Below are positions 9,888-26,633 of a stretch of DNA of 38,070 nt, piece after piece; the first letter of the stretch is position 1; each line of letters opens with the position of its first letter. The stretch is from Clostridiales bacterium (GTDB taxonomy: Bacteria; Bacillota; Clostridia; Lutisporales; Lutisporaceae), in assembly GCA_012521375.1 (NCBI GenBank), contig JAAYMO010000234.1, positions 1 through 38,070 on the forward strand, in the 5' to 3' direction. Position numbers and translations under genes: made by a program. Under the pieces are notes generated by a model. The model worked only from the letters and a program-made list of their open reading frames with translations, was not told the DNA's origin and did no database searches.

Positions 9888-10030
9888 CTCCTACACGGCA
9901 ATTATTATTACATATTTTATCATATAAATACATAATACGCCATGTATGGATAAATAATATTCAAATTTCAAAATATTTACTTGTCTGGAATTACATTATG
10001 TTTTGCTTCTCCATTTTTATATATTAGGCT

Positions 10031-10091
10031 GCTCCTGCACCTGCTTGTTGAGAAAATACTTTTCCCCTTTATGTAATGATTCTGCAGGAGC
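10031..10091. repeat. 9-bp perfect inverted repeat enclosing a smaller hairpin
   Basis: GCTCCTGCA (10031-10039) and TGCAGGAGC (10083-10091); interior GAGAAAATACTTTTCCCC is itself dyadic. Confidence 0.7.
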
Positions 10092-10112
10092 ACCATATAA
10101 ATCAGACTTAAT

Positions 10113-10680
10113 TATTTAAAGTCTTTCAAAACCTTCTTTAAATGGATATTCTCCTTTATACAGAACAACCTTATTAGCACTGTTATAACAAAGCATACAT
10201 ATACTGTTTCTTCCTTTCCCACAATTTATAAATTACAATAAATAGTATTGCACCAATAATAGAGGCCACTGCATAAATTTCTTTATAAAAAACATAGGGA
10301 ATTTCATTAGCAAATACATCTCTAAGTATACCTCCACCAGCTCCAGTGAGTACAGCTAGAGCCATAATAACAAAGGGTTGTTTTAAACTATTATTAATAG
10401 CTACTTTCGCACCGATTGCAGTAAAAGCTCCAAGCCCTATAGCATCAAAAATCAGGAGAACTTTACTTAGATGAATAATTTTATTATAAAAAAACTATAA
10501 CTATTACTGCAGAAAAAATACTAATAATTATATATACTGGATTGATAAGTGCAGAAGGCAAACCTTTATTAATTAAATTATCTCTAATAATTCCTCCTCC
10601 TACAGATGTAATTAGTGCAAAAATATAATTCCATACTACTCACGCTATGCATAATGCAATTGCACTATAAACATAGCTCC
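10113..10680 (-). pseudogene. UPF0126 / TRIC-like (Pfam Gly_transporter) membrane protein, multiply disrupted
   Basis: Fragments in different minus frames: ALITSVGGGIIRDNLINKGLPSALINPVYIIISIFSAVIVIVFL*; IFDAIGLGAFTAIGAKVAINNSLKQPFVIMALAVLTGAGGGILRDVFANEIPYVFYKEIYAVASIIGAILFIVIYKLWERKKQY; VCFVITVLIRLFCIKENIHLKKVLKDFK*. The two GGGI(I/L)RD repeats are the family hallmark. Confidence 0.85.
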
Positions 10681-10703
10681 TCCCTTCTTTCTTATTTTTT
10701 CAT

Positions 10704-10739
10704 AAAAAAAGAACGCAAGCTAATAAATGCCTCACGTTC
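10704..10739 (-). terminator. Intrinsic terminator (expression platform) after the glycine riboswitch
   Basis: Minus-strand GAACGTGAGGCATTTATTAGCTTGCGTTC followed by TTTTTTT. Confidence 0.8.
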
Positions 10740-10955
10740 TCTGTTCCCCTACCTAAAAGCACTGCCATATTTAAAAAAAATTAACCCTACTGTGCTTTAT
10801 TACTGGAATTCCCAGAGTTCCATCTTGCAATGATTTATTTGCCTGAAAGTTTCTATAAAGTTTTGGCGTCCTTTATATTGCCCCTTCGGCTATTCTTATA
10901 AATCCACCTAAATTGTGAATTTATTGAATATCTCTCACTACAATCATCTGGAATA
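10735..10955 (-). ncRNA. Glycine riboswitch (aptamer I well conserved; aptamer II probable, degenerate)
   Basis: Minus strand: CCAGA...GTGAGAGATATTC...AATAGCCGAAGGGGCAATATAAAGGACGCCAAAACTTTATAGAAACTTTCAGGCAAA...GGAACTCTGG (P1 CCAGA/TCTGG), then AAAGCACAGTAGGGTTAA...GGCAGTGCTTTTAGGTAGGGGAACAGAGAAC. Confidence 0.85.
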
Positions 10956-11117: not shown

Positions 11118-12137
11118 TTATTTTTCTTTTTCAGTTTCATCTCCATCTATAACATTGATAAATATTCTCTTCGATATTCCACCATTTACAGGCTTTATAT
11201 ATATATATTCATTACCTGAATTTCCTGCATAAAGATGCTTTATATCATTATTTAATCTAACTAGACTACTTTCCCTATCCCAACTTAATAAAAGCTTAGA
11301 ATCTGATATTTCAATAGGCACACTCTCATCTCCAATAATGGCAATATGTTCTCCTTTATTCATATTAAGTTTTTCTAAAGGTAATGTAATATTTCCCCAT
11401 TTATCAGATTGATAAGGTATATAATAAGTAACAATTTTACTCATATCTTGATCATCATTTTTTTCAACATAGTTATTAGGAACAAGGCGTGTTTCTTTTA
11501 TAGCTCCGTCGACTACTTCAATCTTTCCGCCTGCTACATAGTTTTGTTCAAAGTAAGTTAAAAATCTATTATCTTTGTAGCTTATTATTCTATAATGGAT
11601 ATATTTCCCCTCATCATTTTTCGATGAAATTATTATTATTGAAGATCTATTTTCAGGGAAGCCAATAATATGGACAGGAAGTGGTCTGCTACTGTTTTCA
11701 AACATGCTGCTATATACCATCTCAAAATCACCATTATTTATCGGACTCCATATTACTGCTAATAAATTGTTATCTTTTTGATAGGGCTTATTAATTTTGA
11801 AAAAATGAAGCCATTGATATATATTTTCTTCCTCAAACTTTAACATTTGTTGTGATACAGGCTCACCCATGGATACCATTTTATCTCTCACAAAACTATT
11901 TTTATTGTATTTATAAATAGCACCAATTAAAAACAACAAGAAGCATATACCTAATACAGAATATTTTAAACATAATTTATAATTGAGAGATTTAATAGGT
12001 ATTGGTTTTCTTCCCTTTTCCAAATTATAATGTACATCCTTGTTGAAATTTGCATAAGGGAAGCTAGAAAAAAATTTATTAGCATCTTTTTTGGCTCGTA
12101 AAAGGAGTTTTTCCATATCATCTTTATCTTTTCTCAT
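11118..12137 (-). CDS. Single-pass membrane protein, probable regulatory partner of the adjacent ECF sigma factor
   Basis: 339 aa, one TM near residue 55-72, 4-bp overlap with the sigma gene; no recognised domain. Confidence 0.6.
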   Translation of the reverse strand: MRKDKDDMEKLLLRAKKDANKFFSSFPYANFNKDVHYNLEKGRKPIPIKSLNYKLCLKYSVLGICFLLFLIGAIYKYNKNSFVRDKMVSMGEPVSQQMLKFEEENIYQWLHFFKINKPYQKDNNLLAVIWSPINNGDFEMVYSSMFENSSRPLPVHIIGFPENRSSIIIISSKNDEGKYIHYRIISYKDNRFLTYFEQNYVAGGKIEVVDGAIKETRLVPNNYVEKNDDQDMSKIVTYYIPYQSDKWGNITLPLEKLNMNKGEHIAIIGDESVPIEISDSKLLLSWDRESSLVRLNNDIKHLYAGNSGNEYIYIKPVNGGISKRIFINVIDGDETEKEK

Positions 12138-12682
12138 ATATTCTCCTCCTTAGATATAAGCTTTCTCAGCTTTTCTCTCCCCCTATGCAAACGAACTTTT
12201 ACATTGCTTTCACTAATTCTTAAAATATCTGCTATTTCTGCAACAGTAAAATCCTCAAAATAATAAAGGCTTATAGGAAGCCTGTATTTTCTTGGAAGAT
12301 CCATCACAAACCTGAATATCTGGCTTCCTTCTACCTCTTCCAACATTCTACTGGCTTCCCTTAAAGATTTATTATAATCATTCACAACACCGACTGTAAT
12401 AAACTTTCTAAAAGCTGCGGACTTAAGATAATCTTTGCATAAATTAGAAGTTATTCTGCATATCCATGTATAGTAACTGCATTCTCCTCTAAACTTATCT
12501 AAATTATAATATACTCTAATGAATACTTCTTGATAAATATCTTCCGCTTGATGTATATCTCTTAAATAGTAATAAGCAATCTTCATTACCTGGCTTCCAA
12601 ATCTTCGCATTAAATACTCCAGCTGTTCCTTCTTATTGTCGTAACTATTCCATTGCTTTTCAGCATATTCTTTCATATTCAT
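12134..12682 (-). CDS. ECF-subfamily RNA polymerase sigma-70 factor
   Basis: Region 2 DIYQEVFIRVYYNLDKFRGECSYYTWICRITSNLCKDYLK; region 4 LPISLYYFEDFTVAEIADILRISESNVKVRLHRGREKLRKL. Confidence 0.95.
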   Translation of the reverse strand: MNMKEYAEKQWNSYDNKKEQLEYLMRRFGSQVMKIAYYYLRDIHQAEDIYQEVFIRVYYNLDKFRGECSYYTWICRITSNLCKDYLKSAAFRKFITVGVVNDYNKSLREASRMLEEVEGSQIFRFVMDLPRKYRLPISLYYFEDFTVAEIADILRISESNVKVRLHRGREKLRKLISKEENI

Positions 12683-23312: not shown

Positions 23313-23321
23313 TAATATTAA

Positions 23322-23659
23322 AATGAGTAAATCTGTAAGCCGGGTTCTGTCTTAGATGGTCATCTATCTCGATCTGCTGTTGCCAGCAGACTCTAGCGAT
23401 CTTACCCGGAAGCTAGGCGGGCCACCTAATTAGCTTCCCTATTTGATCTTGCTCCAGATGGGGTTTACATAGCCGATTAGTCGCCTAATCGCTGGTGAGC
23501 TCTTACCTCACCTTTCCACCCTTACCATAAAAATGGCGGTATATTTCTGTTGCACTTTCCTTGAAGTCGCCTTCACCGGGTGTTACCCGGCATCCTGCCC
23601 TATGGAGCCCGGACTTTCCTCATGCACATATATGCATGCGACCATCCGATTTACTCATT
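23322..23659 (-). ncRNA. rnpB: RNase P RNA (bacterial, type A-like)
   Basis: Minus strand: GAGGAAAGTCCGGGCTCC, GGTGAAGGCGACTTCAAGGAAAGTGCAACAGAAA, GACAGAACCCGGCTTACAG; ends pair as P1 (AATGAGTAAATC / GATTTACTCATT). Confidence 0.97.
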
Positions 23660-26476: not shown

Positions 26477-26553
26477 TGGTGGGCCTTCAGGGACTCGAAC
26501 CCCGGACCAACCGGTTATGAGCCGGTTGCTCTAACCAACTGAGCTAAAGGCCC
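26477..26553 (-). tRNA. tRNA with CAU anticodon (tRNA-Ile2 or elongator tRNA-Met), CCA encoded
   Basis: GGGCCTTTAGCTCAGTTGGTTAGAGCAACCGGCTCATAACCGGTTGGTCCGGGGTTCGAGTCCCTGAAGGCCCACCA; complete cloverleaf. Confidence 0.95.
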
Positions 26554-26557
26554 TAGA

Positions 26558-26633
26558 TGGCTCCTCAAGTTGGACTCGAACCAACGACCCTGCGGTTAAC
26601 AGCCGCATGCTCTACCGACTGAGCTATTGAGGA
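26558..26633 (-). tRNA. tRNA-Asn (GUU), CCA encoded
   Basis: TCCTCAATAGCTCAGTCGGTAGAGCATGCGGCTGTTAACCGCAGGGTCGTTGGTTCGAGTCCAACTTGAGGAGCCA. Confidence 0.97.

Follow-up and report, generated by a model that had tools for sequence, protein, structure and literature searches.

Type-1 singlets, i.e. glycine riboswitches made of one aptamer followed by a 3' ghost aptamer, are a described class and have been proposed to be degraded tandems (PMC6944388; PMC9481103), a degradation model that comes from sequence clustering. Glycine cleavage genes are the targets of 93% of them (PMC6944388), and the account of Ruff 2016 given in PMC9481103 has singlets binding glycine as well as tandems do. The tandem riboswitch of Bacillus subtilis works through aptamer 1, a kink-turn and a terminator in an ON mechanism (PMC5666159). 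Destruction of its second pocket left regulation intact, and destruction of the first lowered the output about tenfold (PMC5666159).

Here we describe a glycine riboswitch leader on the minus strand of the window, i.e. the whole stretch of 38,070 nucleotides that was analysed, from a Clostridiales bacterium (G000). It is probably a tandem-derived riboswitch that has come to resemble the type-1 singlets and, now an orphan, is decaying along with the TRIC/UPF0126 gene that was its target.

Architecture of the leader

10944-10951, minus strand: leader strand of the kink-turn P0 (CCAGATGA), kept in family leaders; pairs with 10820-10824
10821-10947, minus strand: glycine aptamer 1 (RF00504), cmscan 42.0 bits, helices intact
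10943-10935/10833-10825, minus strand: aptamer 1 P1, by homology and pairing
10930-10926/10895-10891, minus strand: aptamer 1 P2, with a long AT-rich extension
10890-10881/10849-10841, minus strand: aptamer 1 P3a
10877-10871/10860-10854, minus strand: aptamer 1 P3b
10836, minus strand: J3/1 position, A in the window versus G in 28/28 intact family riboswitches (alignment column 142)
10820-10824, minus strand: linker strand of the kink-turn (GATGG), by family alignment and pair checking
10739-10819, minus strand: ghost (eroded) aptamer 2, by alignment to intact second aptamers, lack of an RF00504 match and fold
10817-10813/10743-10739, minus strand: ghost P1 CTCTG/CAGAG, intact, within a ghost whose core is eroded
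10798-10792/10762-10756, minus strand: inner stem AAAGCAC/GTGCTTT of the ghost, predicted fold

The sequences quoted in the original prediction were all found on the minus strand. A cmscan of the whole window returned one glycine match, to RF00504 at 10947-10821(-), whose 42.0 bits exceed the gathering cut-off of 32 bits; the proposed glycine aptamer elements are thus borne out, with a significant covariance match over aptamer 1 and none over the second aptamer. The E-values of this match, 2.2e-5 for both strands of the whole window and 3.9e-7 for the bacterium's own genome, indicate that it did not arise by chance. Membership in glycine-GGAnGA (RF03166) was rejected, as the score of 55.2 bits is under the gathering cut-off of 110 and the second half barely aligned.

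P1 had been assigned to CCAGA/TCTGG, which is a misassignment where the ligand-binding fold is concerned. By homology and pairing, P1 is UUGUAGUGA/UCAUUGCAA, with 9/9 pairs on pair checking. The CCAGA/TCTGG pairing occurs in the unconstrained minimum-energy fold, where it competes with the ghost P1; comparison with the homologues assigns CCA..UGG to the leader-linker kink-turn and CUCUG to the 5' strand of aptamer-2 P1. The kink-turn (CCAGAUGA/GAUGG) is present in the window, its CCA/UGG stem forming 3/3 pairs by alignment and pair checking, and the latter also gave 8/8 pairs for P3a, including two G-U, and 7/7 for P3b.

The leader was aligned with 28 intact tandem glycine riboswitches of the same taxonomic family. 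It departs from 10 of the 64 invariant or nearly invariant columns, and its intact relatives from at most 5 of 68-69. Seven of the ten broken columns belong to aptamer 2, affecting the J1/2 G, CACCG (CACAG in the window), GAA (UGC) and CUCUCAGG (CUUUUAGG). Segment 10819-10739 still aligns over its full length with the 28 tandems, and its P1, CUCUG/CAGAG (5/5 pairs), aligns with P1 of the intact second aptamers; no second RF00504 match was found in 10690-10830 up to E = 10. Because of the broken invariant columns and the lack of such a match, we regard this segment as derived from aptamer 2 but no longer an aptamer, which agrees with the eroded second aptamer proposed originally. The leader contains one recognisable aptamer, not the two of a tandem and, judged by its sequence, is in architecture a tandem-derived type-1 singlet.

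In aptamer 1, the G of J3/1 is the sole fully invariant column that changed without compensation; another altered column belongs to a P1 pair that went from C-G to U-A and so remained a pair. The good preservation of this aptamer, together with the pair-preserving change, could be a sign of continued selection. As the kink-turn, the aptamer-1 helices and the ghost P1 are kept, function with a single aptamer, one of the two options offered in the original prediction, would be structurally possible. A singlet that still works would bind glycine through aptamer 1, use the ghost as a scaffold, and control transcription of the TRIC region or a short regulatory RNA under selection. Besides the intact helices and the compensatory change, the binding of glycine by singlets (Ruff 2016, as related in PMC9481103) and the dispensable second pocket of B. 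subtilis (PMC5666159) are consistent with such a switch. However, its TRIC target is broken, an A at 10836 replaces the invariant J3/1 G, the terminator is weaker than in the gcvH homologues, and the sister species G004 has dispensed with aptamer 1 (see below); we consider a working singlet quite unlikely.

The P2 helix of aptamer 1 is lengthened by an AT-rich hairpin (ATAAATTCAC/GTGGATTTAT, 10926-10895(-)) not seen in other family members. This extension is older than the split of G000 and G004, since the G004 relic described below still shows some of it.

The same genome contains two further glycine riboswitches, both intact tandems, one before gcvT (contig C287) and the other on C264 (L002, 112-294), where it precedes a small gene and a thioredoxin-reductase-like gene. 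The small gene resembles grdX of the glycine reductase operon, and the same arrangement, probably representing that operon, occurs in most family genomes.

The TRIC/UPF0126 pseudogene and the origin of its leader

10672-10684, minus strand: ribosome-binding site AGGGAGGAG and former start ATG (10674-10672), by sequence and by homology to the G001 gcvH leader to about 10678
10124-10674, minus strand: TRIC/UPF0126 (PF03458) pseudogene, a damaged N-terminus followed by pieces in frames -3, -1 and -3

The two halves of the gene match PF03458 (Gly_transporter) with 83.2 and 38.2 bits (cut-off 23.5). When compared by tblastn with the intact homologue of G356, residues 37-79 fall in frame -3, 79-170 in frame -1 and 176-199 in frame -3 (10618-10130), i.e. 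three pieces in two frames, with at least two frame changes, so that the reading frame is not intact. Clear homology to TRIC begins about 56 nt past the ATG, the first 36 codons being damaged and only weakly recognisable (10/300 shuffles reach the mean score with 24 TRIC genes). The frameshifts rest on a draft assembly, in which a general error is unlikely because the neighbouring genes are full length. No intact gene remains downstream for the leader to control, and it is therefore an orphan.

A separate gene past the second TRIC piece (peptide ...VVLYKGEYPFKEGF...) was considered and rejected, since the peptide had no match and tblastn with intact TRIC extended the TRIC C-terminus to 10124. 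No gene is recognisable in the following 230 nt or so, up to the chemotaxis receptor gene (9890-10123); one imperfect inverted repeat in this stretch (GGTGCTCCTGC...GCAGGAGCAGCC) may be a former terminator.

Of the 22 family genomes, only that of the window carries PF03458. In the wider class, a glycine riboswitch lies near TRIC in 4/20 loci examined, so the pairing is not unique; a literature search retrieved no paper in which a glycine riboswitch is mentioned alongside UPF0126 or TRIC channels. In locus L072 (G060 C44), the TRIC gene (minus strand, about 1400-2025) has a premature in-frame TGA near codon 173, with TRIC sequence continuing beyond it. This may be an independent and more recent loss of a target of this kind, behind a leader that looks type-2-like.

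At the DNA level, the leader is most closely related to that of the gcvH-gcvP operon in G001, of the same family (blastn: 71% over 216-224 nt; E 1.8e-21 and 2.1e-22). The similarity spans aptamer 1 to the ribosome-binding site, and a second such leader occurs in G010. These homologies suggest that TRIC acquired a leader of the gcvH type, whatever the order of events. Alternatively, the leader might be what remains of a gcvH operon, with TRIC never a regulated gene and brought adjacent by a deletion. This would agree with the likeness of the closest family leaders, all of gcvH, through the terminator and ribosome-binding site, with the regulation of glycine cleavage genes by 93% of type-1 singlets (PMC6944388), and with the redundancy of a second glycine-cleavage operon in a genome that has a separate gcvT operon. 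However, a gcvH remnant between the start codon and TRIC was rejected, as shuffling gave it no support (31/200 and 87/200 shuffles; p 0.26 and 0.48), the same stretch is weakly TRIC-like (10/300 shuffles, above), clear TRIC homology begins so close to the ATG, and other loci of the class have a glycine riboswitch before TRIC. We find an origin of this kind unlikely.

Within the family, the operon behind the riboswitch begins with gcvH in G001 and G010 (L059, L063) or with gcvT in most other genomes (L001), and these two kinds of glycine-cleavage operons have different terminators.

The terminator and the orthologous locus of a sister species

10704-10742, minus strand: intrinsic terminator, by folding; 10742-10739 is shared by its 5' arm and the 3' strand of ghost P1
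11118-12137, minus strand: second flank protein, probably an anti-sigma partner; no Pfam match; orthologous flank in G004
12134-12682, minus strand: ECF-type sigma factor, upstream flank; orthologous flank in G004

A terminator made of GAACG...CGTTC and a run of T's had been predicted. The hairpin is real, but its stem is longer and begins inside the ghost P1: it extends over 10742-10708, followed by T's to 10704, with a dG of about -14 kcal/mol (-14.6). Folding detected this hairpin; a simple terminator scan gave no match, as its loop and stem limits exclude it. P1 and terminator are arranged in the same way in the gcvH leaders of G001 and G010, whose terminators are stronger (-19.5 and -18.1 kcal/mol; z-scores of -6.2 and -5.7 vs -2.5 in the window). 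As the stem starts at 10742, inside the P1 3' strand (10743-10739), the ghost P1 and the terminator are mutually exclusive, and the layout is therefore that of an ON switch, as in B. subtilis gcvT.

In such a leader, glycine would bind aptamer 1, which would dock on the ghost P1 (CUCUG/CAGAG). The ghost P1 would sequester the AGAG at the start of the terminator 5' arm, allowing read-through into TRIC, and without glycine the terminator would form, the predicted direction thus being ON. Today the orphan leader would mostly terminate transcription, and its switching is presumably weak or inconsequential, because no intact gene follows.

In G004, a species of the same genus and the nearest relative with this locus, the sigma/anti-sigma pair is found on one side of the locus (the second protein is 77% identical) and the chemotaxis receptor on the other (85% identical, in a public record that is probably the same genome). 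The two flanks are on contigs C167 and C70, which share a 15-bp end, and the order is as in the window; this junction rests on a draft assembly. The receptor also has a 75% match to L. thermophila, and this match and the shared beta-eliminating lyase gene nearby suggest that the bacterium is a Lutispora or closely related to it. A plasmid origin was rejected, as similar DNA was absent from the plasmids searched. Elsewhere, at 23320-23657(-) and 26480-26633(-), the window encodes a class A RNase P RNA (330 bits) and two tRNA genes, all of them ordinary.

No glycine aptamer follows the anti-sigma gene on C167, the glycine matches of G004 being limited to C17, and TRIC is absent from this genome. 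What C167 retains is a relic collinear with the 3' half of the window ghost, the terminator and the nucleotides beyond; its score of 47 was reached by 0/500 shuffles (mean 24.5, maximum 38). The aptamer-1 5' region (AGAGATATT..AATTTAG) is also matched, more weakly (4/500 shuffles reach the score). The hairpin arms are AACGCAAG/CUUGCGUC in G004 vs AACGUGAG/CUUGCGUU in the window; two changes in the 5' arm turn G-U wobbles into Watson-Crick pairs, and the T tract is kept. Judging from this alignment, the G004 terminator has outlasted the sensor.

The sensor might then be dead, and the terminator kept by selection as a plain terminator of the upstream sigma/anti-sigma operon. It lies on the same strand, it is the first strong terminator-like hairpin past this operon in both genomes, and G004, which has lost the sensor, keeps the hairpin, with pair-preserving changes, and the T tract. 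If this is true, an expression platform can outlive both its sensor and its gene, G000 being the intermediate and G004 the end stage. On the other hand, the locus is carried by two genomes only, a weaker AT-rich hairpin with T's is present at about 10990, and some 30 nt can survive passively. With two genomes, passive survival and recruitment of the terminator are inseparable, and we hold recruitment to be a possible, though doubtful, explanation.

The reading that we favour, i.e. decay together with the target, had already been put forward in the original prediction, and it has gained from the TRIC pseudogene, the 10/64 broken invariant columns and the further-decayed locus of G004. It joins what was observed of the architecture and homology of the leader, the P1/terminator overlap, the broken target and the more decayed orthologous locus. 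Related leaders represent successive stages: an intact gcvH leader, a singlet-like leader with a dead target, and a near-empty site with a terminator. This suggests that the second-aptamer core was lost first, then the target gene and aptamer 1, and the terminator last, an order poorly resolved by the two genomes that carry the locus. Loss of the second pocket first fits the effects of the two pockets in B. subtilis (PMC5666159). The locus also calls for caution, as a riboswitch can score above its Rfam cut-off and yet lack a live target.

Comparison with known systems

Like the type-1 singlets (Ruff 2016; Crum 2019), the window leader has one RF00504 aptamer, an eroded second aptamer with its P1 kept, and an expression platform. 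Unlike them, it faces a broken TRIC gene instead of a live glycine-cleavage operon and has lost one invariant aptamer-1 base, and its glycine binding is predicted. With the tandem gcvH leaders of G001 (C17) and G010 (C50) it shares a homologous kink-turn, aptamer 1, P1/terminator overlap, terminator and ribosome-binding site; however, those leaders have two recognisable aptamers and an intact gcvH, whereas the window has a ghost aptamer 2 and a TRIC pseudogene.

The B. subtilis tandem gcvT riboswitch resembles the window leader in its transcription-terminator ON layout, its kink-turn and its dominant first aptamer, and differs from it in that both of its aptamers bind and its operon is live. 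In other Clostridia, too, glycine riboswitches lie upstream of TRIC (L070, L072, L073 and L076); the leaders there score 45.7-61.8 bits, in contrast to 42.0 in the window. In L072 it is the aptamer adjoining the gene that looks conserved and the 5' one that is eroded (type-2-like, as read by eye), unlike in the window. What is new here is a decaying member of a described class; its staged decay and the possible recruitment of its terminator do not amount to a new kind of system.
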